The translations under genes were made by a program, and so were the position numbers. From contig NZ_LANI01000002.1 of NCBI RefSeq assembly GCF_000982415.1, forward strand, positions 186,001-250,000: a stretch of 64,000 nt of DNA, in the 5' to 3' direction. Shown piece after piece: positions 7,693-21,576 of the stretch (within the stretch, counting starts at the first letter, position 1; the number at the start of each line of letters is the position of its first letter). The notes beneath the pieces were generated by a model that did no database searches, had not been told where the DNA came from, and saw nothing but the letters and a program-made list of their open reading frames with translations. The DNA is from Kiloniella litopenaei. Its GTDB lineage: Bacteria; Pseudomonadota; Alphaproteobacteria; Kiloniellales; Kiloniellaceae.

Positions 7693-9060
7693 TCACTGAA
7701 GCGGCTCAAAACTGGCGGTAAAGTGGCGCAGCATTTTTGGCTCCTGGGTAATACGGTAACCCGGCAAGCTATCTTTGATGGCAGACAGCTCTTCAAAAAC
7801 CTCGACCATATAGTCCGCGTGTGATTGTGTATAAACCCGCCGCGGGATTGCCAGACGCACCAGATCCATGGCCGCGGGCTTTTCCGATCCGTCCGGTGCA
7901 CGTCCAAACATCACCGTGCCGATTTCGCATCCCCTGATACCACCCAGTTCATAAAGCGCACAGGCAACAGCCTGTCCGGGATATTGCAACGGTGCAATAT
8001 GGGATAACCAGCGCCGGGCATCAACAAAGACCGCATGTCCACCCGCAGGTTTTACCACAGGCACACCCAATGCATCCAATCGCTCACCAATATATTCGTT
8101 GGTGCGGATACGATAGCGTAAATAGTTCTCGTCAACGATCTCGGTCAGCCCCTGTGCAATGGCATCCAGATCTCGTCCTGCAAGACCGCCATAGGTAGGG
8201 AAACCTTCGGTCATGATCAAACGCGCTCGACATTTCTCTGCCAACTCATCATCGTTAAGCGCAAGCCAGCCACCGATGTTGGCAAAAGCATCCTTCTTTG
8301 CTGACATGGTCATACCATCCGCCAGCGCAAAACAATCCCGGACAATTTCCTTGATGGTCCGATCACCTTGTCCCGCTTCACGCTGTTGAATAAACCAGGC
8401 ATTTTCGGCAAAGCGACAGCCATCAATGATAAAGGGTTTGCCAAAACGTTTGGCCAGTGCCGCAGTCCCGCGAATATTTTCCAGTGACACAGGTTGTCCA
8501 CCCCCGGCGTTATTGGTGATGGTCAGCATCACGCACGGTACCTTATCACCATATTCACCCAGATAGCTTTCCAGTTTATCCAGATCCATATTGCCCTTAA
8601 AGGGATGGATCAACGCCGGGTCTTTGCCCTCTTCAATGACAAGGTCAGTGGCCTCGGCCCCGCTGTTTTCAATGTTTCCCCGTGTGGTATCAAAGTGGGT
8701 ATTGGATGGAATGTACTTCCCCTCGCCCCCCAAAATAGAGAACAGGATAGCTTCGGCAGCACGCCCCTGGTGCGTCGGAATAATGTGTTTGAAATCCATC
8801 AAATCCCGCACCGCAGCTTCAAACCGATAAAACGATGGAGACCCCGCATAGCATTCGTCCCCGGCCATTAAGGCTGACCACTGTTGTGCTGACATGGCCG
8901 ACGTACCACTGTCGGTCAACAAGTCAATCAACACATCATCAGAATGTAGCTTGAAAAGATTATAGTCTGCCCGCTTCAAGAGATCCCGCCGCTCTTGTGG
9001 CGTAGTCATGCGAATGGGTTCAACAGATTTAATACGAAAAGGTTCAATTATGGTCTTCAT
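7693..9060 (-). CDS. tnaA: Tryptophanase TnaA
   Basis: This PLP enzyme cleaves L-tryptophan to indole, pyruvate and ammonia. The 455-residue protein belongs to the tryptophanase/tyrosine phenol-lyase family, and specific residues decide between the two. It has FDTT with D124 at the position of TnaA Asp137, where tyrosine phenol-lyase has Thr. It has CEIG where the lyase has its substrate-binding Arg381. It has RHFTA with H446 at the TnaA His463 position, where the lyase has Phe. The PLP lysine is in SAKKD (K255/K256). All three point to tryptophanase. ATG 9060 and TTG 9063 are both possible starts, with GGAG upstream. No tnaC-like leader or tnaB permease was seen, so indole may be made from internal tryptophan. 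Confidence 0.92.
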   Translation of the reverse strand: MKTIIEPFRIKSVEPIRMTTPQERRDLLKRADYNLFKLHSDDVLIDLLTDSGTSAMSAQQWSALMAGDECYAGSPSFYRFEAAVRDLMDFKHIIPTHQGRAAEAILFSILGGEGKYIPSNTHFDTTRGNIENSGAEATDLVIEEGKDPALIHPFKGNMDLDKLESYLGEYGDKVPCVMLTITNNAGGGQPVSLENIRGTAALAKRFGKPFIIDGCRFAENAWFIQQREAGQGDRTIKEIVRDCFALADGMTMSAKKDAFANIGGWLALNDDELAEKCRARLIMTEGFPTYGGLAGRDLDAIAQGLTEIVDENYLRYRIRTNEYIGERLDALGVPVVKPAGGHAVFVDARRWLSHIAPLQYPGQAVACALYELGGIRGCEIGTVMFGRAPDGSEKPAAMDLVRLAIPRRVYTQSHADYMVEVFEELSAIKDSLPGYRITQEPKMLRHFTASFEPLQ

Positions 9061-9324
9061 CAAAAGGGTTCTCCGCTTTCGCCCCTTTTAGATGCCTTAC
9101 TCCATTAAAGAAGGTAAAGACCGTATTCCAATCGGGGCAAAGCGCCGCGGTTGCCTGCTGCTCATCAGCCTGCCGCGCTCAGCGCCCAAATTCATACCCA
9201 ATAAAATTAGCGAGTTCGCAAAACCCTTGCAAGGGGGAAGTCATATTTAAATCAGGTTTTATTGCCCCCAAAAATCCGTACATCCAGATACAAAACACTA
9301 AAATATAATCAAAACATCAGAATA
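9061..9324. other. Intergenic region upstream of tnaA
   Basis: This spacer of about 260 bases separates tnaA from the end of the upstream RelA-like gene, which points the same way. It contains a perfect 12-bp palindrome CCCTTGCAAGGG at 9224-9235. I found no Trp-containing leader peptide like TnaC and no clear promoter. Confidence 0.5.
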
Positions 9325-10398
9325 TTACGTGGCGACATCATAATTAATTCTCCGACAGAGAGGGCCCAGAACGCGATGTCGGGCTGATCTGATCTGGCGC
9401 TGTTTGTATTGTTCGTGCGATGCTTCGCCATTGCGATTGGCTTGATAGCTTTCTTCGTCCTGGATCTGGATTTCATAGGGAAAATAAAAACGGCGCGGGC
9501 TTCCATCTGCGTCCCTCAGCTTAATCCGCTGGCGACAGGTAAACTGCAGGGCACGATAGCTGTCACCACTAAAGACATTATCGCTCATACGTCCCACTTC
9601 TTTTGGGTATTGCATTTCCTGCAAATCCGCACTGACCTGTGCCAGATCCTCTATACCTTTCCAGCGTTCTTCGACCCAATCCACATCTATCAAACTGTTA
9701 CGGGAACGGGATGGTTTGATATTGGCGAACATCACGACATTCTGGTTCCGCAGATAACAAAGGACACGCAAGGCATCCAGCGGATAGCGGGTCACCATCC
9801 GAATACCGATCCAGTCAAAAATATCCGCAGCTACATTTTCAGCCTTGTGCAACAGCTTGAGCACCGCTGACTTGCGGGATTTGGACGCACGACTTTCATA
9901 GGAAACAAGCTCGATATCCCCAATAAAGATGCCATTGGATGTATAGCGAATATGCTGTTCAAAACGGCTGAAAATCTGATCTTGAATTTGCCCGTGATAA
10001 TTTTCATTAAAAAAGGATCCACAGTGGGCATAGGTGTGCATCACACGTAACAGGGCACAGCTCCACCGTGACCGCGGGGTTGCCTCAGGCTCAGATACCC
10101 ACATAAGCAAATGCAGGATATTTTCCTGATTACGTACTTCCGGCAAGATTTCCTCGCCATCTTTCAGCAAAATATCTTCGATAAAATCGATCGCTTCCAG
10201 ACGAATAGATTCAATTTCCTGGCGATCTTCCAGTTGATTGTAATCATAACCGTAACATTCCAGAAAGGCCTCAGCCTCTTCCAAAGATGTGACCTGTAAA
10301 CGCGGGGAATCAATAATAGACTGACCATTCAGCACCGTCTTTAACGATGCGCCAGCCCATAGTTTTAGCTCTTCGTTCATTAAATCAGTATTTCCCAT
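9325..10398 (-). CDS. RelA/SpoT-synthetase-like (nucleotidyltransferase-fold) protein
   Basis: The 357-residue protein has an N-terminal helical part of about 150 residues followed by a region that reads like a divergent (p)ppGpp synthetase. Basic residues in RASKSRKSAVLKLLHK (170-185) precede DWIGIR (195-200), which matches the DLIGIR/DIAGIR metal-binding segment. YRALQF (281-286) matches the Tyr-containing G-loop YRSLHL. PYEIQIQD (307-314) matches the catalytic VEIQIRT. The fold assignment comes from motif order and is inference. It may belong to the uncharacterised TIGR04552-like family. It lacks an HD hydrolase domain, TGS and ACT domains. The last residue of the IQIRT motif is changed. 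Product and activity are unknown. No partner gene is close enough to be obvious. Confidence 0.65.
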   Translation of the reverse strand: MGNTDLMNEELKLWAGASLKTVLNGQSIIDSPRLQVTSLEEAEAFLECYGYDYNQLEDRQEIESIRLEAIDFIEDILLKDGEEILPEVRNQENILHLLMWVSEPEATPRSRWSCALLRVMHTYAHCGSFFNENYHGQIQDQIFSRFEQHIRYTSNGIFIGDIELVSYESRASKSRKSAVLKLLHKAENVAADIFDWIGIRMVTRYPLDALRVLCYLRNQNVVMFANIKPSRSRNSLIDVDWVEERWKGIEDLAQVSADLQEMQYPKEVGRMSDNVFSGDSYRALQFTCRQRIKLRDADGSPRRFYFPYEIQIQDEESYQANRNGEASHEQYKQRQIRSARHRVLGPLCRRINYDVAT

Positions 10399-10797
10399 TT
10401 GTATCTTACCCCAATATCAAACCGGGTAAGGACGGGTGGGGCAAAACAAACTGACGATACAGGCAAGCTAGTATTCAAAATACAGATGCTTACATGCGGA
10501 TATGCTCTAGCCAGTACTCTGGCAAATGAAAGCTAAATAATGATTAAGTTTGCCTGTCAGAATAAAACCATCTTGCAAGATTTCCTCGAAATGATTTCCT
10601 TCAACTGCCCCGCCAATGAAGAGGCATAAGATTAAACGTCCGGTTATGACCTTTGACATATCTGTTAATCTATCTGGTTTAGAAGAAACTTTCTTCAAGC
10701 AAGGTTCGGATCAAAACTCTGTGAGCAATCCCGCCAGAAATCGAACAATCAAATTTTCAAAGATTAAAGATAGAGAGGCTGGCTATCTAAAGGCCGA
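10399..10797. other. Intergenic stretch without recognised gene
   Basis: This 399-base spacer lies between two minus-strand genes. Short open frames (10507-10698 on minus, 10616-10840 on plus) lack ribosome sites and recognisable content. It should contain the promoter of the RelA-like gene near its left end. Confidence 0.5.
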
Positions 10798-11370
10798 CTA
10801 CCTAAAGGCTGGCCCATGTACCCACGCCACCAAGGCATAGCGTGTCCCCTTTGTCACCGGGCGCACCTGATGTTGAAGAAAGCTAGAGAAAATTACAGCC
10901 GTTCCCTGATCTTTCGGAGCTGACCAGTTCTTGCCCTCGTTATCAACGCTCAGTTCTCCGCCATTGTAGCTTGCGCCATGGCTCAACTGGATCGAAATAG
11001 ACAACTTGCGGCTAACCGTTGAACCAGAGGCACCAATATCCATATGCGCACCATAATGTCCCGCAGGTGCCTTGGGGTCTTCGGGGGCATCATATCTGAT
11101 CAGCTGGAGCCCCTCTTTAAAGTCTTCCAGATCAAACTGAAACCAATCCTGATTGACCCGAGACACCAGCCCGGCAAGTTTTTTAAAAAGCCATGATGTT
11201 TCATTGGTATCATCCAGCCACAAATAGCTGCATTCACGAAGCGAGCTTTTGACCCCGCCCGCCAGCTTGGCATCAGCCACATCGGGTGAGCCTTCAAACA
11301 GATCAATCAGCTGCTGACACTCCCCGGGGGACAGTACTTTTTCCCTCACACAGGGACGGGTCATCTTCAT
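10798..11370 (-). CDS. 2-oxoglutarate/Fe(II) dioxygenase, PKHD/prolyl-4-hydroxylase type
   Basis: The 190-residue cytoplasmic protein has the double-stranded beta-helix motifs of Fe(II)/2-oxoglutarate oxygenases. H109-x-D111 lies in GAHMDIG and the distal H167 in QHQVRP. R177, ten residues later in GTRYALVAWVHGP, is positioned to bind 2-oxoglutarate. The RKLSISIQLS and YNGGEL segments are typical of the PKHD-type subfamily (YbiX-like). The substrate is unknown. It points away from the multicopper oxidase operon across an approximately 320-base spacer. Whether it takes part in that pathway cannot be told from the sequence. Confidence 0.85.
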   Translation of the reverse strand: MKMTRPCVREKVLSPGECQQLIDLFEGSPDVADAKLAGGVKSSLRECSYLWLDDTNETSWLFKKLAGLVSRVNQDWFQFDLEDFKEGLQLIRYDAPEDPKAPAGHYGAHMDIGASGSTVSRKLSISIQLSHGASYNGGELSVDNEGKNWSAPKDQGTAVIFSSFLQHQVRPVTKGTRYALVAWVHGPAFR

Positions 11371-11689: not shown

Positions 11690-13225
11690 ATGAAAAAAAT
11701 AGAACGGCGAACGTTTTTGAAAGGGGCTGCCGCCCTTTCAGCTGGTGGTATCGTACTCAAAGGTATCACCGACAGCGGTTTCAGTTACGCACAGGAAGTC
11801 CTCAACAGTACATCACCGCTGGGCATTTCCGACGATCTGCGCAACCCACCGGAATTACGATCTGTGGACGGTCAACTCCGCGCAGAGATCTATATGAGCT
11901 ATAACAAGGTTGAACTGCCCAGTGGCACGGCGCTGTTGCGGAATTTGAATAACAGCCTGCCCGGCCCCACCTTGCGGATTGATCCCGGTGATACTCTCGA
12001 GCTCGCGTTTGAAAATCGCATGCCGGAAAACACCCCGGATCAGCCCACCGAAGTGAACATTCCAAATCACTTCAACACCACAAACATGCACTACCACGGC
12101 TTTCATGTCAGCCCAAAGGGCAACAGTGATAACGTCTATCTGAACATCGAGCCGGGGCAAAAGTTTAACTATGTGGTCGAAGTTCCCGATGACCATCCGG
12201 CGGGCAGTTACTGGTACCACCCCCACCGCCACGGATCTGTATCGGCACAGGTTGCATCCGGTGCCGCAGGCATGGCCGTGATCACGGGTACACTGGATGA
12301 CGTGCCGGAAATTAAAGAAGCCGTGGAACGCGTTCTGGTTATTCAGGCGCCGATCCCCGGTGTTGATGGCATACTGGATGCCGAAGACCCGATCTGGCCA
12401 CTTGATGCAGAACGCGACTTTCTGGTCAATGGCGAATACAAGCCCCGAATTTATATCCGCGAGGGCGAAGTCCAGCGCTGGCGCATTCTGCACGCAGGTG
12501 ATGCCCAGTTCTTCCCCTTCAAGATCGACGGTTTGGAAATTTACGAAATAGGCCGCGATGGCAACCCTTTGCCCAAGGCTCAGCGCCGGGAAGAAATTCA
12601 CCTTGCCCCCGGCAATCGTGTTGATGTCCTGGTCAAGGGTGTAAAACCAGGTGCCTACCTACTGCGCCGTCCATTTTTTGATCAGGGGAAAGCATCTTTG
12701 CCCCCTGTGCATCTCGCCAATATCTTTGTCATCCCCAAAGATGACCCACGTGTTCCGGTGGGTATTCCTTTTGGCCGGGCTATTCCACAAGGCGACCTGC
12801 CTAAAAACCGGATATTGACAGATATAACAGACGACGAACTGACAGGGCATCGCAAGATTGTTCTGGGCGTCGAAGATGTAAAGGGCTTCTTCCACGATAC
12901 GCTCTTTACCATCAACGGCGAACCATTTGATCCCAAGCGTGACGATGTGGTTTCCAAGGTTGGCGCCGTCGAGGAATGGACCCTGATCAATACAACACCT
13001 TTCCCGCACCCGATCCACATCCATGTGAACCCTTTTCAGGTTCGATCCATCAATGGTGTCCCTGATCCTGATAAACCGTGGATGGATACCATAGGTGTCC
13101 CTGCCGCAGGGTCTGTGACCTTTCGAACCCGTTTTCTGGATTTCTCGGGCCGCTATGTCATGCATTGTCATATTCTCCCCCACGAGGATACGGGCATGAT
13201 GATTAATGTGAATATCGAAGCTTAG
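11690..13225 (+). CDS. Tat-exported multicopper oxidase (CueO/CotA/bilirubin-oxidase type)
   Basis: The 511-residue, three-cupredoxin enzyme starts with a Tat signal (E-R-R-T-F-L-K-G at 5-12), so it folds with copper before export. All four copper motifs are intact: H134-Y-H136-G, YWYH177-P-H179 with H181, H440-P-I-H443-I-H445, and H492-C493-H494 followed by H498 and M503/M504 as axial ligand. It should couple one-electron oxidations to reduction of O2 to water. It lacks the Met-rich insert of CueO, so copper detoxification is not the obvious role. The ATG at 11690 follows AGGGGAG. It leads a seven-gene operon whose next gene is a c-type cytochrome, a plausible electron donor. Confidence 0.93.
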   Translation: MKKIERRTFLKGAAALSAGGIVLKGITDSGFSYAQEVLNSTSPLGISDDLRNPPELRSVDGQLRAEIYMSYNKVELPSGTALLRNLNNSLPGPTLRIDPGDTLELAFENRMPENTPDQPTEVNIPNHFNTTNMHYHGFHVSPKGNSDNVYLNIEPGQKFNYVVEVPDDHPAGSYWYHPHRHGSVSAQVASGAAGMAVITGTLDDVPEIKEAVERVLVIQAPIPGVDGILDAEDPIWPLDAERDFLVNGEYKPRIYIREGEVQRWRILHAGDAQFFPFKIDGLEIYEIGRDGNPLPKAQRREEIHLAPGNRVDVLVKGVKPGAYLLRRPFFDQGKASLPPVHLANIFVIPKDDPRVPVGIPFGRAIPQGDLPKNRILTDITDDELTGHRKIVLGVEDVKGFFHDTLFTINGEPFDPKRDDVVSKVGAVEEWTLINTTPFPHPIHIHVNPFQVRSINGVPDPDKPWMDTIGVPAAGSVTFRTRFLDFSGRYVMHCHILPHEDTGMMINVNIEA

Positions 13226-13253
13226 ACCCGCGCAACGAACTGGATTACTGAAT

Positions 13254-13598
13254 ATGACGAAATTATCCACAATTTACGCCACCAGTGCCCTTTTGGTTGG
13301 TGGCATATTCCTTGGAAACAATGCAATAGCAGATACAGCTGCGTCCTCTCCCACACCGAACCCGATCCCGGCATCAGGCTCGCAATGCCTTTCCTGTCAC
13401 GGAGAGGATGGTCGCCCGGCACTGGCTGATGTGCCCATCATCGCCGGGCAACAACCGATCTATCTGGCAAATGCCCTGCGCCATTACAAAAACGGACAGC
13501 GCACAGGCGGCCAAGCCCTCGTGATGCAGGAAATGGTCAAAGACCTCACCGATAAAGATATTGAAGAACTCGCAAAATGGTTTGGAGAACAGAAATGA
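13254..13598 (+). CDS. Periplasmic class I c-type cytochrome
   Basis: The 114-residue protein has a Sec signal peptide (about residues 1-26). A single haem motif C45-L-S-C-H49 lies in a GSQCLSCHGEDGRPA context of the cytochrome c553/c4 kind. The C-terminal LTDKDIEELAKWFG helix is typical of the family, and the axial methionine is probably in VMQEM near residue 90. It lies 28 bases after the multicopper oxidase, and its stop overlaps the next start (ATGA). It could carry electrons from the GMC dehydrogenase encoded downstream to the oxidase encoded upstream, as cytochrome subunits do in three-part membrane dehydrogenases. That routing is inference. Confidence 0.9.
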   Translation: MTKLSTIYATSALLVGGIFLGNNAIADTAASSPTPNPIPASGSQCLSCHGEDGRPALADVPIIAGQQPIYLANALRHYKNGQRTGGQALVMQEMVKDLTDKDIEELAKWFGEQK

Positions 13599-14314
13599 GA
13601 AAGTTCCTATTAAACACAGTTGCCGTAGCAACACTTGTTACTCTGTCTCTGACCGGTATCGTACAGGCTGACAGTACTGCCAAGGTCGATAACAACATCT
13701 ATCTGACCTCACCCGAGGGAGAGCAGCTGTTCCGTGATGCCGAAATTTCAACGGATTATCTGAAGCTGGCGAGCTATCTGGAAAGCGAACATATTCTGAC
13801 CTTCTGTGGTCCGGCGTCTATCGCCGGGGTCATGAATTCACTGGATATTGAGCGCCCGCAACCGCCAGAGCTTTACCCTTGGCCGCTTTTTACCCAGGTA
13901 TCAATCTTCACCCCGGAAAACCAGAAGGTGAAATCCTATGCCATGGTCGAGCACGAAGGTCTGGAATTGCCACAACTGGCCCAGTTCTTCATCAATCTGG
14001 GAGCGAAAGCAGAATTTAAACACGCGGATGATTTCGATGAAAACTGGCTGCGTGAAACCATTACCAAAACCCTTGCAGATCCTAACAAGCGCTTTGTAGC
14101 AAACTATTCGCGAAAGCCAATCGGACAAATCGGTGGCGGCCATATCTCTCCTGTCGCAGCTTATGATGCCGATACGGACCGCGTTCTGGTTCTGGATGTC
14201 GCCCGTTACAAATACCCCCCTGTTTGGCTCACCATTGCAGAGCTATACGGTGCGATGATGGACAAGGATTCCACATCAAACAGAGCCCGTGGTGCCGTCA
14301 TCGTTAGCCAATAG
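13595..14314 (+). CDS. Secreted phytochelatin-synthase-like cysteine peptidase
   Basis: Phytochelatin synthases are papain-fold enzymes that remove glycine from glutathione and, in eukaryotes, condense gamma-Glu-Cys units; bacterial short forms mostly do the cleavage step. The 239-residue protein keeps the full triad: C71 in FCGPAS, H183 in GGGHISPVAAYD and D201 in VLDVARYKYPPVW. It has an N-terminal Sec signal (residues 1-25), so it should act in the periplasm. It is the single-domain prokaryotic length, without the C-terminal Cys-rich region of plant enzymes. The ATG at 13595 overlaps the preceding stop and has GGAGAA upstream. Its place between a cytochrome and a dehydrogenase is unusual. 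The substrate could be glutathione, a glutathione conjugate or another gamma-glutamyl-cysteine compound. Confidence 0.9.
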   Translation: MRKFLLNTVAVATLVTLSLTGIVQADSTAKVDNNIYLTSPEGEQLFRDAEISTDYLKLASYLESEHILTFCGPASIAGVMNSLDIERPQPPELYPWPLFTQVSIFTPENQKVKSYAMVEHEGLELPQLAQFFINLGAKAEFKHADDFDENWLRETITKTLADPNKRFVANYSRKPIGQIGGGHISPVAAYDADTDRVLVLDVARYKYPPVWLTIAELYGAMMDKDSTSNRARGAVIVSQ

Positions 14315-14382
14315 ATCCACCGGATCGCCAAGAGCCGTATAAAAAAACAAAGCCTTTATAGAGGCCGTCAGGAGAATTGAAG

Positions 14383-14859
14383 ATGAAACTAAGCAGACGC
14401 TCTTTGCTTGCCTCTGCTGCGCTGATCCCCTTGGCAGGACAGGCACAGGCCTTGAGCCTGGGGTCGGGTTCGCGGGTATTTAGCGAAGCAGTTCGCCAGA
14501 TCGGTGGTGTGGTTGATATCCCCAATCACATGGTCCGTGCGGTCGAGACCGAGTTCCTGACCGTCTATGGACAGGATGCCATGAACACCTTTATTCAGCT
14601 GGTTGACGGACGCTCGATTACCGAGGCCCTGACAGATGCCAGCGATGATTTCAAAGACCAAACAAAGCTGATTGCCCGGGTTCTCTATACAGGGGAAATC
14701 ACCCGCACAGACGAGAAAGGCAACAGCACGACAACTGTCCCTTACTACCCCTGGTCACTGGCCTGGTCATCCCTTGCCTTTGCCAAGGCCCCGGGTATTT
14801 GCGGCGGCCCCAAGTTCGGGCACTGGACGCACGGCCCCCTTAAAGGGAGAGAGATGTAA
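14383..14859 (+). CDS. Tat-exported small subunit of GMC-type dehydrogenase
   Basis: The 158-residue protein begins with a Tat signal (KLSRRSLLASA) and resembles the small subunits of fructose, gluconate and FAD-glucose dehydrogenases. The C-terminal YYPWSLAWSSLAFAKAPGICGG is the family-like end. In these complexes the small subunit carries the large flavin subunit through the Tat system; this is established for the family. ATG 14383 follows AGGAG at 14370-14374. Its stop overlaps the start of the large-subunit gene (TAATGG), indicating translational coupling. Confidence 0.85.
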   Translation: MKLSRRSLLASAALIPLAGQAQALSLGSGSRVFSEAVRQIGGVVDIPNHMVRAVETEFLTVYGQDAMNTFIQLVDGRSITEALTDASDDFKDQTKLIARVLYTGEITRTDEKGNSTTTVPYYPWSLAWSSLAFAKAPGICGGPKFGHWTHGPLKGREM

Positions 14860-16496
14860 TGGCTGACGAAAATAAAATGAATGCCGATGTCGTTATCATC
14901 GGGGCTGGCATGGCCGGGGCACACCTTGCCAGATCTCTACGCGAAAAAGATATCGATGTCCTGATTTTGGAAGCCGGGGACAGACGTCCACGTGGCGATT
15001 TCCTCAAGGTTTTCTATGAAAACCCGGTCAAGGGGCCTCAGGCTCCCTACCCAAGTATTCCTTCTGCCCCCCACCCGGAAGACAACAAGTACGCAGACTT
15101 TTATGTACAAGACAAAGATACGTTGAAAGAAAACCTCTTTATCGGGGCCTATTTGCGTATTTTTGGCGGTACAACGTGGCATTGGACAGGTTTTGCAGAC
15201 CGCTTGCGTCCGGCAGATTTCCGCATGAAGAGCCTCTATGGTGTGGCCGAAGACTGGCCCATTGACTATGAGCTTCTGGAACCATTCTATGAAATCGCAG
15301 AGAAACGCTGGGGAGTAGCTGGTGACCCGAACCACGTCTGGGGTGCACCGCGAAAGACACCTTATCAGATGCCGCCAATCCCCGAGACCTATCTGGATAA
15401 ACAGGTCACCAAAGCTCTGACCAAGATGGGACTGCACTCGGCGATCTTCTCTCATGCCCGTAATTCGGTTATCTATGACAATCGTCCGGTTTGCTGTGGG
15501 AACAATACCTGTGTGCCAATCTGCCCTATCGGAGCCAAATACGATGCCTCTGTTGATGCACAGAAGGCCGAGGAAGAAGGTGCACGGGTCGAGGTAAACG
15601 CCCTTGTGACCTTTATGGAAGTTGATAAAAACCAGAAGATCACCCGTGTCAAAGTCCAAAAACCGGATGGATCAACCTTCTGGGTTGGCGGCAAGGCCTT
15701 TGCGCTTTGTGGTCATGCCATTGAAAACCCCAGACTTCTTCTCAACTCCAAACAGGAAACAGCAAGTAAAGGCGTTGCAAATTCGTCTGATTCTGTCGGG
15801 CGTTATCTTCTGACACAGGCCAATCAGGATACCACCGGTTTCACCCCGGACCCTGTCTTCCCCTATCGTGGACCGCAGCAGACATCGGGTCTGGTCGAAC
15901 GCCGGGATGGTGAATTCCGAAGCAAAATGGCCGCCATCGGAACGTCCTTTATGAACAACGGCTGGTCTGGGAACAGCGATGCCATCAACATGGCGCACGA
16001 TCTTATTGACCAGGGTGTTGTCGGGGCAGAGCTTTCAAAACAGATTAACGAGAAAGTTTCCCGTCACTTGCGTCTCAATTCCTCGGCAGAGGTCTTGCCG
16101 GATCGAAATAATCGGCTGGAACTTTCCGACCAAATGGACACCGCTGGCATCCCCAAACCCAAGATTACCTTCAAGATGGATGACTATACCAAACAGGGCC
16201 TCAAGGTCGGTCTGGACATAAATCTGGAAGTTTTCAAGAATATGGGCGCGACAGAGGTCAAACACAACGACCCTTACCTGTCCAATGCCATTATCGGCGG
16301 CACGACACGTATGGGGGCCGATATCAAAACCTCTGTCGTCAATGCCGATCTGGTTGCACACGATCACGACAACCTTTACATCATCGGATCCAGCAGTCAT
16401 GTGACAACCCCGGTTAACGCCCCGTCTTTGACCATTGCAGCCCTTGCCATTCGTGCAGCGGGACACATGGAAAAGAAACTGGCCGAAATGCCATAA
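14859..16496 (+). CDS. GMC-family FAD dehydrogenase large subunit with Cys cluster
   Basis: The 545-residue flavoprotein has an N-terminal FAD-binding GAGMAG (15-20) and the C-terminal GMC segment SSHVTTPVNAPSLTIAALAIR. It has no signal peptide, consistent with hitch-hiking export on the Tat small subunit encoded just upstream. Cysteines C212, C218 and C222 in VCCGNNTCVPICPIGA have the C-x5-C-x3-C spacing reported for the 3Fe-4S cluster of bacterial FAD-glucose dehydrogenase. It is therefore an electron-transferring dehydrogenase, not an H2O2-forming oxidase. The natural acceptor would be a c-type cytochrome. The substrate (an alcohol, sugar or hydroxy acid) cannot be read from the sequence. 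Confidence 0.9.
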   Translation: MADENKMNADVVIIGAGMAGAHLARSLREKDIDVLILEAGDRRPRGDFLKVFYENPVKGPQAPYPSIPSAPHPEDNKYADFYVQDKDTLKENLFIGAYLRIFGGTTWHWTGFADRLRPADFRMKSLYGVAEDWPIDYELLEPFYEIAEKRWGVAGDPNHVWGAPRKTPYQMPPIPETYLDKQVTKALTKMGLHSAIFSHARNSVIYDNRPVCCGNNTCVPICPIGAKYDASVDAQKAEEEGARVEVNALVTFMEVDKNQKITRVKVQKPDGSTFWVGGKAFALCGHAIENPRLLLNSKQETASKGVANSSDSVGRYLLTQANQDTTGFTPDPVFPYRGPQQTSGLVERRDGEFRSKMAAIGTSFMNNGWSGNSDAINMAHDLIDQGVVGAELSKQINEKVSRHLRLNSSAEVLPDRNNRLELSDQMDTAGIPKPKITFKMDDYTKQGLKVGLDINLEVFKNMGATEVKHNDPYLSNAIIGGTTRMGADIKTSVVNADLVAHDHDNLYIIGSSSHVTTPVNAPSLTIAALAIRAAGHMEKKLAEMP

Positions 16497-16545
16497 TGAC
16501 CCTCGTGATTAATAAAAAACAATTGCTGGACAAGTCTGGTACTTG

Positions 16546-16578
16546 CTCAATGAACAAGGTTTAAACTCAATGAACAAG
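16546..16578 (+). repeat. Short direct repeat duplicating a start-codon region
   Basis: CTCAATGAACAAG occurs at 16546-16558 and 16566-16578 with a 20-base period. The second copy holds the start codon of the transporter gene. The first yields an out-of-frame four-codon frame (M-N-K-V-stop) just upstream. Confidence 0.75.
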
Positions 16579-18030
16579 CTATTTGGCGTTGTCAGTCTGG
16601 CAATTCTCTCTTTTGTCTTCCTCGGAAACGCATTGAAATCGGTTGTTACCTCTACCGTTTTTGTTTCCGAGGGCGAGTTTGCAAGTTTCCTGAATATCTC
16701 TGTCGACAAAACCCAGATTTTGGTCGAGTTGTTGATCGGCAGCTCTGTCATGGCATTGGCCGTTGCCCCTTTCTTACTTACCCGTCAACGGGCACACAAA
16801 ATCGCATCAATCTCTGCCTTGGTGGCCGCGGGATGTTACGCCGCACTCGGCCTGACCATGACCGTGGGCCCCGCACTTTTTGTGCGTGAGTTGATGGTTA
16901 TCATCACCTTTGCCCTTGGTGGGTTCTTTATTTCCTTCTTTGCCCCCATCGCACAGCTAGCCATTAATGATGTAGAGAATGAACGCGAACGGGTTTTTCT
17001 GACCACTGTCTGGACATCTGCGCAACCCGTCGCCTTTTTGATTACGCCCCAACTGGTAAAATACGTCGCTCTGGATATTGGCACCGGGAATTACTTCCTG
17101 ATCTTTGCGATCTTTCCCCTATTCTACCTTTTTCTGACCCGTACGGTGTTGAAGACACCGTCCGCTCCATCGACAGGTGGGGAAACGTTATCAAGTGAAA
17201 AGATAGACTGGCAGACCATTGGCTTTATCATCATAACTATCGCGGCCTTTGAAGCCTGGACCTTATCCAACTCTCTGTCGGGTGTGATCTCTGCCACCAG
17301 CCTTTCCTTTATGGGCGCTTTCTTTGTTATCGCCTTGATTGCCGGGTTTTATCTAAAGAAAAAGCGGCAGGAAGAAATACTTAAAAATGGAAATATAGAA
17401 ACCGTAAAAAAGGGTCTTCCACCCACAGCAACTTTCCTGCTGATTGGCCTTTTTATTTTAGAAGTACCCTCCACGGGGTTCTTTGATGGCGCGTATCTTA
17501 TTCGACACCTCTGCGCCCCGAGCCTGATCGAGGATCGTGCTTCTTTAGGCGCGGCGTCCCAGATTGCAGCTGTCGCGCTCGGTGGTGCTCTTTTTGTGCG
17601 CTGGCCACGTTTAATGCCCCTGTTGTTACTCTCGGGAATTCTGCTCTTGCTCATCGGGTCACTCGGTTTTATTCGCTACCCCGATCTGCCCGTCGATGCA
17701 TCCTTTTTCTACACTTCGAAAATGGTTGCCCAGGCTGGCATGGGACTGGTCACCACTGTTATCGTCGGCGTGGTGATGGCTGAATGCCGCGGTAATCCCG
17801 TTATGGCCCTACTGCCTGCATTGGTCATTATGTTCGGGACAGAGTTCGGGTTGGAGATCCTTGAAATCGTGTATCAGGGTGCCAAGCTTTATGGCCTTCA
17901 GGAAGTCGAAGCCTATCGCGTTATCTTCTACGCACAGATCATTGCCATCCTGATCGCCTTGATCCCCTGTATCGAAGGGCTCTATCTAAAACACAAACAG
18001 GTACGCAGAGCAGCACATGAGCAAAACTGA
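16570..18030 (+). CDS. MFS-type transporter
   Basis: The 486-residue integral membrane protein has 12-14 hydrophobic helices and a cytoplasmic basic loop around residues 265-290 (KKKRQEEILK). The general shape is that of the drug:H+ antiporter branch of the major facilitator superfamily. The substrate is unknown. The ATG at 16570 is chosen because a TTG at 16543 would add nine non-hydrophobic residues. It follows the dehydrogenase gene by 73 bases and overlaps the next gene by 14 bases. Its job is probably export or import of the compound processed by this operon. Confidence 0.8.
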   Translation: MNKLFGVVSLAILSFVFLGNALKSVVTSTVFVSEGEFASFLNISVDKTQILVELLIGSSVMALAVAPFLLTRQRAHKIASISALVAAGCYAALGLTMTVGPALFVRELMVIITFALGGFFISFFAPIAQLAINDVENERERVFLTTVWTSAQPVAFLITPQLVKYVALDIGTGNYFLIFAIFPLFYLFLTRTVLKTPSAPSTGGETLSSEKIDWQTIGFIIITIAAFEAWTLSNSLSGVISATSLSFMGAFFVIALIAGFYLKKKRQEEILKNGNIETVKKGLPPTATFLLIGLFILEVPSTGFFDGAYLIRHLCAPSLIEDRASLGAASQIAAVALGGALFVRWPRLMPLLLLSGILLLLIGSLGFIRYPDLPVDASFFYTSKMVAQAGMGLVTTVIVGVVMAECRGNPVMALLPALVIMFGTEFGLEILEIVYQGAKLYGLQEVEAYRVIFYAQIIAILIALIPCIEGLYLKHKQVRRAAHEQN

Positions 18031-18520
18031 TTTACCAATTCTGGAACAACGCCGGATAGAGGCAAATATCATCAAGCCCATATATGATGAAATGGTTGCC
18101 GAAGTCGGGGTTGAGCGGGCAAAGGCAATTTTAAAGAATGCCATTGTCAAGAATGCGATCTCGCACGGCAAAGCCTATGCAGAAGCCCAAGAGAATGCCA
18201 CGACACAAACCACGTCGCTTCTGAGCTTTCATGCGCTTCTCCCCCAATGGATGGCCAATGGCGCACTGGAAATTGATATTCTGCAAGAAAACGAGAAACA
18301 TGTGGATTACAACGTAACGCGCTGTCGTTTTGCAGAAATGTACAGAGAAATGGGACTGGGCGAGATTGGTCACATTCTGTCCTGTAGCCGGGATGGAACC
18401 TTTTGCACAGGCTATGACCCCAAAATTAAGTTAGCGCGTACCCAAACCATTATGGAAGGCGCAAGCCATTGCGATTTTCGCTATCGCTACTGCCCAGATC
18501 ATGAAAAAGATAACGATTAA
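18017..18520 (+). CDS. L-2-amino-thiazoline-4-carboxylate hydrolase-like protein
   Basis: The 167-residue protein resembles the ATC hydrolase family. Its members include the enzyme that opens the thiazoline ring of 2-aminothiazoline-4-carboxylate on the route to L-cysteine in Pseudomonas. The C-terminal half has the family-like pattern NVTRCRF (C103), EIG..LSCSRDG (C123, D126), GYDPKIKLARTQTIMEGA and H151-C152-D153-F-R. It has no signal peptide and is cytoplasmic. It overlaps the MFS gene, which suggests the carrier delivers or removes its substrate or product. Many family members are of unknown substrate, so a cysteine- or thiazoline-related role is inference. Confidence 0.85.
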   Translation: MSKTDLPILEQRRIEANIIKPIYDEMVAEVGVERAKAILKNAIVKNAISHGKAYAEAQENATTQTTSLLSFHALLPQWMANGALEIDILQENEKHVDYNVTRCRFAEMYREMGLGEIGHILSCSRDGTFCTGYDPKIKLARTQTIMEGASHCDFRYRYCPDHEKDND

Positions 18521-18629
18521 AACAGATAAAAATCAGGGGCCACCGGAGCCAACACACCTTCAATAATCAAGGCCTCGGCCCAATAAACAGCCCCCCGGTC
18601 AGATAAAAATAGCCCCCCAAATAAAATAA

Positions 18630-18682
18630 CCCCTGAAGCGATAGGTCCCGCACGGGTTTCCTTTGCTTCAGGGGCTTTATTT
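18630..18682. terminator. Bidirectional terminator
   Basis: Arms CCCCTGAAGC (18630-18639) and GCTTCAGGGG (18665-18674) pair perfectly, with a small inner CCC-GCAC-GGG stem in the loop. A CTTTATTT run follows on plus, and TTATTTTAT on minus. It ends the seven-gene operon and the convergent adhesin gene. Confidence 0.8.
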
Positions 18683-18713
18683 ATCAGCGATGTAAAAAAT
18701 AGTCCGCGTGCTG

Positions 18714-21452
18714 TTATCCCAATACATCCAGACTATCTGAATCCAACAATGACTTGATTGCATCCAGTTCAGACGTACCACCACTGAGCAGGTTCACGTT
18801 ATCCAGTTCGATTGTAACGCTATCGCCACCCGGTAGCGCACCATTGCTATCAACGGTAATGGTTGTATCCGAACCATTGGTTGACACATTCAGATAATCA
18901 TCCAGCGCAGCAGCCAGTTCAGAATTATCGCTTGCAGCTGCCAATGATCCATCATCGGTCAATAGTTCGCTAAGATCCAGAACATCACCCTGTCCGACAT
19001 TAAAGCCGACAATGGTATCTGTATCGCCAGCATCTGCGCCAGAGAACTGATAGGTGTCTGCGCCTGATCCACCGTTCAGCGTGTCATCGCCCGCACCACC
19101 AATCAAAAGGTCATCACCGCTTTCGCCAGAAAGAATATCGTTACCAATACCACCGATCAGCGTATCATCGCCGTCGCCTGTCCACATTCTGTCGTTCCCA
19201 GCACCACCATCAACGGTGTCATTACCAGACCCATTGTAACGATCATCAAAGGTATCATTGCCACCCCCAAGGGAAACTTCGTTATCCGCGGCACTACCAT
19301 AGACATAATCACCAAAATTTGTCGCGATCAGGTTATCAACACCTTCGAGGCTGTCATCACTGACCAGTTCTTTAGACAGTCCGACTTTACCTTTGATTTC
19401 AGCATTATTGGCACCGCCCGAAGGAGCATTGGCACCACCAACGGGGCCACCGTCATAATCCAGAAATGCCTGAATACCCGCAGTTGCTGTTGAATAGTCA
19501 GCATTGGCACCATCGACCGTCAAACTTAAGGTGCTGGATGTTGTATCCCCGTCACCATCGGTAACTTCATAGGTAAAGACATCCGTTCCCGCACCCTGTT
19601 CTTCGGTTGTAAAGCTGACCTGACGCACAAAGTAATCAGATGAATCACCCTTTCTGCTTCCTCCATCAGCATAGTCAATCGCATCAAACACCAGATATTG
19701 GAACTTTACGCCCCCGGTATCGATTGTCGCGGTGCCCACATTACTGCCGTTATAATCAATTGTCGGATCATTCAGAATGCCGGACGCAACTTTGTTGCCA
19801 TCGGAATCATAGGCTGTCCATTGCCCCTGTTCGCCCTTACTCTCTGTTTTGTAGAGGTTCGAAACCTTGACAGTGGCAGAGGTCGCATCAGCCTGTAGGT
19901 CAATAACCAGCTTTTCACTCTGCCCGGTTTCCGCGTCATGGTTGATCTGCTTTGGTGCAGGCGATCCGCCCGACACGCCAATACCACGGCTGCTGAATGT
20001 TACATTTGCACCTGTGTTCGCCAAGGCGTCAAAGTCTGGGGTATCGGTCATGCCATAGGCATAGAGCTTGACATCACCCCAATCACTGCTGCGGCCACCC
20101 GTACCGGAACGGCCAACAGAAAAATCACCACCAGCCTGATACCCTGTCGCCGTATAGGTGTATGCCCCATCCGCAGAAATCTGCAAGGTACCGTTTGCGC
20201 CAACAATCTCTGTCACACCGTCCGGGGCAACTGCATGCTCTTTACCTTCAAAGGTAACAGATGTAACCGAACCGCCGTCCGCTCCAACACCGTCGTTATC
20301 AAGCACATTGCCGGTCACAGTGGTATTTGTACCTGTACCCGCCAAGGTTTCGCTATCGGCAACAGCAACGGGAACATCATCTTCGATTGTAACCGTAACC
20401 GCCGTTTCAAGGACAACCTCGTCACCATCGGTATCAAAAGCCTTGAACGCACCGGAAATATCCAGATCAAGTGACTGACCGTCATCATTGGCAGGGTCGT
20501 TTGGTGTATGATCAATCTGATCTTTAAGGACAAAGTTAAAATCATCACCGTCTTTGGTCAGCTCAAAAACAACACGTTCCCCGTCACCAGACCCGGCAAC
20601 ACCCTGAACGGCAATAACGGTACCTGAACCATCTGTAATAACTTTATAGCTTACGGCTTCGCCCTGGGACGTTACGCCAACCGGACCAGCGATATCTTCG
20701 TTGAAATCAAATCCACCCAGACCATCGGTTCCGGCATCTACCGTTGTCGCCAAGGCTTCAGAGGTAATGGTAATCTCTGTTGTCTGATCCTGACCGGATT
20801 CAGCATTGGCCCCTTTCAGGGCATCTTCATGTACCTCGACATTAACAGGCGCCGCACCATTGTTCACCGGCACACCGTTCAGTTCAGCCAGGGTTTCTTC
20901 GTCGCCATCGTCCAGCAGGTTAAAATTAAGCTCTGTGCGTCCCAGTGTATCTTGCGCATCCAACAGATCGACAAGATTACCCGTTTCATCATCATACTGG
21001 CTACCGCCGCCACCTTGCGGACCAGCACCTGCACCCGCCGCTGTTTCCAGGGTTTCCCCTGCGCTCAATGCCTGTGCCTGACCGATCAAAAGACCCGCGG
21101 ACAGTTCAACACCACCGATAATGAGAACGGGCGCATCAGCGCCCTGGGATGCATCAACCAGGTTTTCAAAAACAATCCGACTGTCGGATGAACCATCGCC
21201 ATTATTATCAAAGGTCAAAACAAAGTTATTGCCTTCAATAACCGGGGTGGCACCCGAAGCATCAAAGTTGAGGTTGGCTGTCTGCCCCTTACCAAGCGCA
21301 ATCGTCGATGTCTCGCCCTCATTCGGGGCAGTCACATCGATGACAGTTGCCGCCTGTCCAACGAGCTGCTCTTGCCCGCTTTCACCAGAGACACCATCAG
21401 TAGATTGGTTCGAGATCACATCGCTTGCAACTTGGGTCAACACATTCACCAT
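18714..21452 (-). CDS. LapA-like RTX adhesin with TAAG site, smaller paralogue
   Basis: This 912-residue acidic, Gly/Asp-rich extracellular protein shares its first 170 residues with the 2541-residue neighbour. The N-terminal module ends in ETLETAAGAGAGPQGGGG. T-A-A-G at 137-140 matches the di-alanine site cut by the periplasmic protease LapG in LapA-type adhesins, and a Gly-rich stretch follows as in LapA. The middle holds VCBS/cadherin-like domains (a VTVTIEDDVPVAVADSETL border and a DGDGDTTSSTLSLTV end). The C-terminus has RTX nonapeptides (GGAGND, GDGDDTLIGG, GNDILSG, GDDLLIGG) at about 735-800 and ends in an aliphatic, Asp/Ser-rich type I secretion tail. The ATG at 21452 is preferred to a TTG one codon earlier. 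No lapD, lapG or type I secretion gene is in the window. Confidence 0.88.
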   Translation of the reverse strand: MVNVLTQVASDVISNQSTDGVSGESGQEQLVGQAATVIDVTAPNEGETSTIALGKGQTANLNFDASGATPVIEGNNFVLTFDNNGDGSSDSRIVFENLVDASQGADAPVLIIGGVELSAGLLIGQAQALSAGETLETAAGAGAGPQGGGGSQYDDETGNLVDLLDAQDTLGRTELNFNLLDDGDEETLAELNGVPVNNGAAPVNVEVHEDALKGANAESGQDQTTEITITSEALATTVDAGTDGLGGFDFNEDIAGPVGVTSQGEAVSYKVITDGSGTVIAVQGVAGSGDGERVVFELTKDGDDFNFVLKDQIDHTPNDPANDDGQSLDLDISGAFKAFDTDGDEVVLETAVTVTIEDDVPVAVADSETLAGTGTNTTVTGNVLDNDGVGADGGSVTSVTFEGKEHAVAPDGVTEIVGANGTLQISADGAYTYTATGYQAGGDFSVGRSGTGGRSSDWGDVKLYAYGMTDTPDFDALANTGANVTFSSRGIGVSGGSPAPKQINHDAETGQSEKLVIDLQADATSATVKVSNLYKTESKGEQGQWTAYDSDGNKVASGILNDPTIDYNGSNVGTATIDTGGVKFQYLVFDAIDYADGGSRKGDSSDYFVRQVSFTTEEQGAGTDVFTYEVTDGDGDTTSSTLSLTVDGANADYSTATAGIQAFLDYDGGPVGGANAPSGGANNAEIKGKVGLSKELVSDDSLEGVDNLIATNFGDYVYGSAADNEVSLGGGNDTFDDRYNGSGNDTVDGGAGNDRMWTGDGDDTLIGGIGNDILSGESGDDLLIGGAGDDTLNGGSGADTYQFSGADAGDTDTIVGFNVGQGDVLDLSELLTDDGSLAAASDNSELAAALDDYLNVSTNGSDTTITVDSNGALPGGDSVTIELDNVNLLSGGTSELDAIKSLLDSDSLDVLG

Positions 21453-21576
21453 CAACTAAATTTATATCCACAGCCCTTGTCCTCAGTAGCCCGGCAAAGC
21501 AGGCACAGAAACAAAAGCTTTTTTGCACACATATACCTTAACTGAAATGGCAAGTTTTAAGTAGAAAAATATCCTA

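Follow-up and report, generated by a model that had tools for sequence, protein, structure and literature searches.

The window analysed here is a 64,000-nucleotide stretch of Kiloniella litopenaei DNA. The ORF list places seven open reading frames at 11690-18520, all on the + strand, which agrees with the preliminary description of the locus. The first encodes a laccase-like multicopper oxidase (MCO) of 511 aa with a Tat-type N-terminus (11690..13225). It is followed by a monohaem c-type cytochrome of 114 aa with a signal-like N-terminus, in which one CxxCH was read (13254..13598), a secreted peptidase of the phytochelatin synthase (PCS) family (13595..14314; 13577 in the ORF list) and a small 'hitchhiker' subunit (SSU) with a Tat-type signal (14383..14859; 14377 in the ORF list). 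The SSU gene lies just upstream of that for a GMC-fold FAD/3Fe-4S large subunit that lacks the catalytic histidine (14859..16496). An MFS-like carrier (16570..18030; 16543 in the ORF list) and an ATC hydrolase family protein (18017..18520) complete the series. The starts preferred here for PCS, SSU and carrier (13595, 14383 and 16570) are the likelier ones from signal sequences judged by eye.

Distances between successive genes are +28 (MCO to cytochrome), -4 (cytochrome to PCS), +62 (PCS to SSU), -1 (SSU to GMC), +46 (GMC to MFS) and -14 (MFS to ATC hydrolase), computed with the nearest in-frame start, a choice that favours overlap. The three overlapping junctions described earlier are therefore real. 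The terminator proposed after the last gene corresponds to a terminator-like hairpin on the same strand (18630..18674), found both by folding (region 18610-18690, -30.9 kcal/mol, z -3.88) and by a pattern scan that returned 14 such sites against 8.2 in shuffled sequence; its T tract is weak. The hairpin is located between convergent genes. Comparison with four Kiloniella loci suggests purifying selection on all seven genes.

The conserved unit comprises six of these genes, not seven. Fifteen loci, 7 of them outside Kiloniella, contain the full series MCO-cytochrome c-PCS-SSU-GMC-MFS (hereafter the core) in collinear order, and three further loci are truncated by contig ends. Gene order is conserved across several genera, and in the seven non-Kiloniella loci overlaps are seen at 32 of 35 junctions if each gene is begun at the nearest in-frame start, which favours overlap. 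This set of redox, PCS and carrier genes is co-inherited; across 12 loci, the pairwise distances obtained with any one of the six proteins track those obtained with the others (correlations 0.85-0.99). The genes flanking the unit vary between genera, and no recurrent neighbour pointing to a substrate was found in the flanks of the unit loci. Thus the expectation that all seven genes would co-occur in related genomes held for the six and failed for the ATC hydrolase.

The ATC hydrolase has a clear PF14196 domain (3.5e-38). Of 9 Kiloniella genomes, 6 have a detected copy, and in 5 it lies near the core. In Kiloniella G008 it is on a different contig from the core, it was not found in the core-bearing Kiloniella G002 and G003, and it was not seen next to any of the 7 complete non-Kiloniella cores. 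The seven-gene pathway originally envisaged, in which this enzyme opens a thiazoline that derives from cysteine and that the other six gene products make or move, would account for the 14-nt MFS/ATC overlap in the window and for the linkage in five Kiloniella. However, we consider it highly improbable given the three core-bearing Kiloniella in which the gene was not found or is unlinked, the seven outside cores near which it was not seen and the extra ORFs that intervene elsewhere (two in L010, one in L008). The gene is best treated as an accessory, linked to the core in some Kiloniella only.

The SSU of the window has no Pfam match. PF12318 (FAD-SLDH) was reached by one of four unit SSU homologues scanned, that of Salipiger, barely above the cut-off, and an SSU homologue is annotated as the small subunit of a sugar dehydrogenase complex. 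A C-terminal Cys is common to the small subunits of the unit, of genome G391 and of Skermanella. The twin-Arg signal of the SSU was read by eye, and export is predicted.

GMC oxidoreductases form a large and well-studied family that is used in biotechnology. In the large subunit the Pfam model GMC_oxred_C is above the cut-off (9.5e-14) and GMC_oxred_N beneath it; among solved structures it matches the FAD-dependent glucose dehydrogenase (FAD-GDH) of B. cepacia (6a2u; E 8e-114, residues 1-540) and fructose dehydrogenase (7w2j; E 5e-103). Aligned with the B. cepacia enzyme, the subunit retains Cys212, Cys213, Cys218 and Cys222 and the FAD-binding His105 (His108 in the window). By sequence, the unit GMC therefore possesses the 3Fe-4S ligand cysteines (Cys212/218/222) and the histidine for covalent FAD attachment. 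The catalytic His476 of the glucose dehydrogenase, however, aligns with Ile478, and this replacement is found in all 15 unit GMCs examined. Among 18 other GMC relatives fetched, the histidine is kept in 15 and absent in 3 (G391 and two from Skermanella). These three group with the unit GMCs in one clade (support 100/98), and outside it the histidine is retained in 15 of 15 relatives. A second histidine (the Q320 column) is also lost from the unit GMC, in which His514, His199, Asp114, Gln320 and Asn520 are fixed. B. cepacia Asn519 is opposite Ala521 in an ungapped alignment, with Asn520 adjacent, and judging from this register the asparagine may be kept, shifted, as Asn520. In the part of the structure paper drawn on here, every GMC member named has a His/His or His/Asn catalytic pair (PMC6719666).

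The dN/dS of the GMC gene (0.011-0.017 against the four Kiloniella loci) is the lowest of the seven, and therefore the GMC is not decaying. Nor is it the ordinary GMC dehydrogenase first assumed, because the catalytic histidine is gone from all unit members examined. One could still suppose that the complex is an ordinary dehydrogenase of sugars or polyols whose electron acceptor has changed and in which loss of the histidine is tolerated. The large subunit is 37-44% identical to His-bearing relatives of the sugar-dehydrogenase type, and the FAD histidine, Fe-S cysteines and hitchhiker are all retained. We nevertheless regard this as quite unlikely: the entire clade is His-less while all 15 relatives outside it are not, the second histidine has gone too and new residues have become fixed, and we know of no role for a PCS partner in sugar oxidation.

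The three non-unit His-less GMCs also have an MCO gene nearby. In Skermanella the order is SSU-GMC-MCO, with no cytochrome annotated in that stretch. In G391 an MFS gene and an MCO gene lie divergent from SSU-GMC; this MCO belongs to a different lineage from the unit MCO, and the MFS protein has no recognisable relation to the unit carrier. Among nine plasmid His-keeping relatives, the GMC gene is followed by an annotated cytochrome c gene in seven cases, and no MCO match is present in the fetched stretch of six genome-derived His-keeping relatives. The Skermanella SSU-GMC-MCO operons have no PCS gene, and the PCS product is therefore not needed for the pairing of a His-less GMC with an MCO.

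The MCO of the window has three Cu-oxidase domains above the Pfam cut-off (best 4.6e-27), with TAT_signal beneath it, and among solved structures it comes closest to bacterial laccases (E 5e-62). Its scores against the NCBIfam models for CueO (132.9, cut-off 525) and CopA (95.6, cut-off 478.95) are too low for assignment to either. Two Pfam cytochrome c models (PF00034 and PF13442) match the cytochrome above cut-off, one of them barely. This monohaem protein is the sole cytochrome in the operon, and no multihaem cytochrome c subunit is encoded there.

PCS is identified by PF05023 (1.8e-52) and by its match to the structure of Nostoc Alr0975 (1e-40), with the Cys/His/Asp triad kept. As the preliminary description had indicated, the copper-ligand, haem, PCS-triad and Cys-cluster motifs of the locus are all intact. 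The unit PCS proteins have the motif TFC[GA]PA[ST], as against [YF]CG[VIL]AS in six of nine solo PCS proteins compared (G391 aside); the PCS of G391 is unlinked, yet has the unit-type TFCGPA[ST]. In the PCS tree the unit members do not form one clean clade. Across a class sample in which at most three candidates were scored per genome, PCS is present in 5 of 5 genomes with a His-less GMC (p 2e-7) and the ATC hydrolase shows no significant association with such genomes (p 0.14), by Fisher tests that ignore shared ancestry.

The carrier matches MFS_1 weakly, beneath the Pfam cut-off. Only 1 of 72,556 plasmid records contained a match, itself a core locus, and by this search the carrier seems specific to the six-gene cluster. 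Residues R312, H313 and C315 (R-H-x-C) are invariant in 11 of 11 aligned carriers. Such residues would suit the strongest rival to the reading we favour, the handling of periplasmic copper or another metal, in which Cu(I) is the substrate of the MCO, the gamma-Glu-Cys thiols formed by PCS bind metal, the invariant His and Cys of the carrier serve to transport the metal or its thiolate, and SSU-GMC is an electron-transfer flavoprotein, not an enzyme for an organic substrate. The intact copper sites and the missing substrate base of the GMC fit this scheme, as does the Cd-induced transpeptidase activity described for one cyanobacterial PCS in the part of the literature source used (PMC7411734). 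An RcnB-domain (nickel/cobalt) ORF follows the MFS gene in L013 (E 3e-21), and in L061 a ZnuA-like gene is located some 2.3 kb beyond the MFS gene. However, each of these genes was encountered in a single lineage, no recurrent metal ATPase, chaperone or regulator was found in the flanking ORFs scanned, and the MCO falls far under the CueO and CopA cut-offs. On balance we think metal handling unlikely.

A dedicated carrier would also fit a unit that makes or tailors a secreted cysteine-containing small molecule, in which PCS would work as a transpeptidase, the oxidases GMC and MCO would tailor the compound and the MFS carrier would export it. The patchy distribution of the unit and its combination of two oxidases with a family that includes one peptide-forming cyanobacterial member (PMC7411734, in part) are in keeping with this scheme. 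It is nonetheless distinctly unlikely, as the unit has no scaffold-making enzyme and the same portion of that source describes the Nostoc PCS as a peptidase only, cleaving Gly from GSH.

We tentatively favour the reading that the six genes encode a periplasmic flavo-FeS oxidation unit that passes electrons through cytochrome c to the MCO and O2, with a PCS-related thiol or conjugate as substrate. The SSU would escort the GMC subunit, already folded, through the Tat pore, and the pair would form a flavin-iron-sulfur complex akin to those of glucose and fructose dehydrogenases. We infer an electron path from substrate to FAD, 3Fe-4S cluster, monohaem cytochrome c, MCO and finally O2, in which the cytochrome/MCO route would replace the multihaem cytochrome subunit of known complexes. 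In the periplasm, the peptidase of the PCS family would remove glycine from glutathione or one of its conjugates, and the resulting gamma-Glu-Cys thiol or conjugate would be the substrate or feed it; the dedicated carrier would shift product or substrate over the inner membrane. The GMC site would have been rebuilt, with Ile478 in place of the base and the five other residues named above fixed, to suit a substrate that does not need that histidine, such as a thiol. As a counterpoint, the MCO and cytochrome could have separate partners. The bolder proposal of a new class of GMC-fold oxidoreductase is possible but doubtful: its rebuilt site (His514/His199/Asn520) would oxidise a glutathione-derived thiol or conjugate in the periplasm and, in contrast to related enzymes, deliver electrons through the monohaem cytochrome to the MCO, forming a compact respiratory module from thiol to oxygen that a secreted PCS-type peptidase would supply.

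A strongly selected His-less GMC clade that is linked to an MCO, and within the unit also to a PCS peptidase, would reveal either a novel flavin chemistry or a novel way of connecting periplasmic oxidation to O2. The role of secreted bacterial PCS is poorly known, and the unit supplies concrete candidate partners for it.

Several known systems resemble the unit in part. It shares with B. cepacia FAD-GDH (6a2u; PMC6719666, in part) the alignable large subunit, the covalent-FAD histidine, the four cysteines and a hitchhiker SSU with a C-terminal Cys. It differs in having Ile478 for His476 and Ala477 for Asn475, in the alignment of Asn519 with Ala521, next to Asn520, and in having MCO, monohaem cytochrome, PCS and MFS genes but no three-haem cytochrome. 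The large subunit of membrane-bound fructose dehydrogenase (7w2j, 8k6j, 8k6k) is homologous over 531 residues, but its Asn1146-His1147, mutated in 8k6k and 8k6j, aligns with Ala477-Ile478 of the unit. The Skermanella plasmid operon (L076, L084) shares the His-less clade and has its MCO gene directly past GMC, but it has no annotated cytochrome, PCS or MFS gene and its GMC lacks His514 and Asn520. Nostoc Alr0975 (2btw, 2bu3) has the PCS domain and triad in common with the unit over 206 residues, whereas the unit PCS is embedded in a redox operon. Likewise, the multicopper oxidase domains and copper-ligand motifs of the unit MCO are those of bacterial laccases and CueO (2xu9, 1kv7), from which it is set apart by its sub-threshold NCBIfam scores and by its operon with cytochrome c and a GMC subunit.

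Positions 11690-18520 of the window are filled by seven genes, all on the plus strand. Pfam agrees with the identities assigned in the preliminary description to the multicopper oxidase (MCO), cytochrome c, phytochelatin synthase-family protein (PCS), GMC flavin large subunit and ATC hydrolase; the small 'hitchhiker' subunit (SSU) has no Pfam match of its own, and the MFS carrier matches MFS_1 weakly. The SSU likewise gave no match to PHROGs and, by sequence, nothing better than E 0.28 in the PDB. The three gene overlaps described there are borne out (cytochrome/PCS, -4; SSU/GMC, -1; MFS/ATC hydrolase, -14), and a stable hairpin, its T tract weak, lies where a terminator had been placed after the last gene. 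Between the window and four Kiloniella loci (L007-L010), dN/dS ranges from 0.011 to 0.128 over the seven genes and is lowest in every comparison for the GMC (0.011-0.017), although several of the dS values exceed 1 and are rough. Convergent with the operon, the minus strand encodes two very large repetitive proteins, secreted-type by reading, of 913 aa (18714-21455) and 2541 aa (21947-29572).

The idea that the seven genes form one set holds for the first six. The order MCO-cytochrome c-PCS-SSU-GMC-MFS is complete in 15 loci, with the ATC hydrolase outside this core. Eight of these loci are from Kiloniella: the window, L007, L008, L009, L010, L011 (G008), L048 (G002) and L134 (G003), where L011 and contig C72 of G008 are one contig, counted once. 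The other seven lie outside the genus: L047 (genome G355), L049 (genome G032), L061, L112, L113 and L114, which represent four species of a single genus, and L066, a Salipiger plasmid. Three more loci hold partial cores, each broken by a contig end (L012, from a Sneathiella MAG; L013, from a MAG labelled Polaromonas; and L115). With distances taken from the in-frame start nearest each stop, 32 of the 35 junctions in the seven outside loci overlap; all five do so, by 1 or 4 bases, in L049, L061, L112, L113 and L114, as do three in L047 and four in L066. Over 12 loci, the six proteins' pairwise distances show correlations of 0.85-0.99, and the six-gene set has therefore travelled as a unit. Strong matches occur in 5/29 sampled species of the L061 genus, one of them broken by a contig end, and the core occurs in 1/14 sampled from the family of G355; this patchy distribution suggests horizontal transfer or repeated loss.

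Upstream of the operon, the minus strand (7693-11370) encodes a protein with a 2OG-Fe dioxygenase domain, a TIGR04562 protein and a lyase that is tryptophanase-like by reading. Where a Kiloniella locus extends far enough, this trio is kept beside the core; none of the three was seen adjoining the outside cores. A second, divergent PCS-domain protein lies away from the core in G002 (L064, C2:179000-198999); a gene homologous to the tryptophanase-like one of the window is roughly 6.5 kb away from it.

The ATC hydrolase does not belong to the conserved set. It is found in 6/9 Kiloniella genomes and, at a similar level in the same search, in 0/49 other relatives. Five of the six Kiloniella that carry one have it near the core, which it adjoins except for one or two intervening ORFs in L008 and L010; in G008 it lies on another contig. 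No ATC hydrolase was found in G002 or G003, each of which has a complete core, nor near any of the seven complete outside cores. In the class sample, an ATC hydrolase exceeds the cut-off in 2/5 genomes with a His-less GMC (the altered form described below) versus 53/385 overall (p 0.14). This non-significant co-occurrence and the patchy linkage led us to reject the gene as a pathway member. The tblastn distances from MFS to ATC hydrolase for L007, L008 and L010 were left unused, as an in-frame stop falls inside the match start. In four Kiloniella loci an ORF of 103-113 aa, with two hydrophobic stretches by reading, comes after the MFS gene (L008:14497-14838, L010:11463-11774, L011:9710-10027 and L048:14134-14448); it is absent from the window, where MFS overlaps ATC hydrolase.

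Judged from alignments, the active site of the unit's GMC is rebuilt. Among solved structures, the window protein comes closest to the FAD-glucose dehydrogenase of B. cepacia (8e-114), with fructose dehydrogenase also a near relative (5e-103). In the B. cepacia enzyme, FAD is held by His105 and the 3Fe-4S cluster by Cys212/218/222, Cys213 is bonded to the small subunit, and catalysis probably falls to the pair His476/Asn519; this agrees with the GMC enzymes listed in the same paper, which have a His/His or His/Asn pair (PMC6719666). The window GMC shares His108 and Cys212/213/218/222 with this enzyme, but in an ungapped alignment it has Ile478 at His476 and Ala477 at Asn475. Asn519 falls opposite Ala521, with Asn520 one residue earlier; this may be a register shift, and we therefore claim only the loss of the histidine. 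Ile478 and a new His514 occur in 15/15 unit GMCs checked, a count that leaves out those of L009 and L134. Among 18 other relatives (7 from genomes and 11 from plasmids, the latter from 19 matches listed besides Salipiger, out of 616 records), 15 keep the catalytic histidine (9 plasmid, 6 genome), and all 15 also have a histidine in the column of Gln320. The three without it are from genome G391 and two Skermanella plasmids. G032 has one unit GMC and one His-bearing GMC (L097).

In a maximum-likelihood GMC tree of 32 rows, one branch splits off all 17 His-less rows (100/98) and is present in 100% of 200 bootstrap trees. The clade comprises 14 unit rows, G391 and the two Skermanella proteins, which branch deepest. 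Both Skermanella plasmids encode the His-less GMC in an SSU-GMC-MCO operon (L076:2355-6229 and L084:3328-7205), with no cytochrome annotated nearby and no PCS annotated. In G391, a His-less SSU-GMC pair is divergent from MFS-MCO (L095:4428-12185), and homology of this MFS to the window carrier is not recognisable. Near six His-keeping genome relatives, by contrast, there were no matches to the window MCO in the stretches searched. Thus, in the loci seen, loss of the histidine goes with an MCO partner. Among the nine His-keeping plasmid relatives, an annotated cytochrome c gene (1.25-1.43 kb) is next in seven; none is annotated in Roseibium, and the Caballeronia stretch carries no annotation.

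The G391 MCO belongs to another lineage and is not an orthologue of the unit MCO, so it reflects either replacement or a second recruitment. The Skermanella MCO was not accepted as an orthologue either, its placement being loose and beside a long branch. An assignment of the window MCO to CueO or CopA was rejected, its scores lying under both cut-offs. Downstream on the GMC strand of G391 are glutathione-S-transferase-like and Cys/Met-metabolism PLP-like ORFs, a single-locus hint toward sulfur.

The PCS triad is kept in 16/16 unit proteins covered at both ends; that of L013 is broken off before the Cys. The unit proteins share the motif TFC[GA]PA[ST] and have signal-like N-termini by reading. 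PCS occurs in 20/385 genomes of the class sample, including all five with a His-less GMC (p 2e-7; by genus 4/4, p 2e-6), with p values that ignore shared ancestry. The His-less GMC survey covered 372 genomes, taken as part of the 385, and scored up to three candidates in each, so its count is a lower bound. The PCS of G391, which shares the unit's motif, is encoded on a different contig from its GMC (L050:919-1515), with an in-frame TAG within the domain that may be real or an assembly error. In the PCS tree, the unit and G391 proteins stand apart from eight other solo PCS, which group together (98/96); the base of the tree is not resolved, and the unit there needs three changes.

PMC7411734 describes the Nostoc PCS as a peptidase only, taking Gly off GSH in the catabolism of GSH conjugates, and reports transpeptidase activity induced by Cd for the Geitlerinema PCS, so the unit's PCS may work in either direction. 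Cd-induced activity favours metal handling as the role of the unit, the strongest rival explanation and one that we consider unlikely. The carrier bears on the same question, since R312, H313 and C315 are invariant in 11/11 aligned carriers and the invariant His and Cys would suit a metal. So would an RcnB-domain (nickel/cobalt) ORF after MFS, seen in one locus with an uncertain start (L013:3802-4410), and a ZnuA-like gene close to the L061 core, in a single lineage. When 20 core-adjoining ORFs of L047, L049, L061, L066 and L013 were given to Pfam, no further common gene emerged, and the neighbours therefore give no substrate lead. The carrier itself seems dedicated to this cluster: its one match in 72,556 plasmid records is the Salipiger core, and it is present in 5/8 genomes tested, precisely those five having the core. 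In a second set it occurs in 6/13 genomes, all six Kiloniella, the lone Kiloniella without it being 77% complete (G005).

We tentatively favour oxidation of a PCS-related thiol or conjugate. The six genes are a co-inherited unit in which the PCS, flavo-FeS complex, cytochrome and MCO are predicted from their signal sequences to be exported, and the carrier to lie in the inner membrane. Electrons would pass from FAD through 3Fe-4S and cytochrome c to the MCO and O2, and the substrate would be a thiol or conjugate made by, or related to, PCS; the carrier's direction of transport we likewise infer. GMC-to-MCO coupling finds support in the Skermanella operon, for which neither a cytochrome nor a PCS is annotated; that operon equally shows that a His-less GMC need not use a PCS product. 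Among the open-access papers listed, judged by titles and abstract openings, none treats the six-gene unit or its combination in bacteria; the one match listed for PCS, multicopper oxidase and GMC together was a mushroom transcriptome, and a bacterial PCS gene cluster had no match in that literature. Compared with the FAD-dependent dehydrogenase complex, two defining features are missing, the catalytic histidine and the multihaem subunit, and we rate the unit as a new form of that complex.
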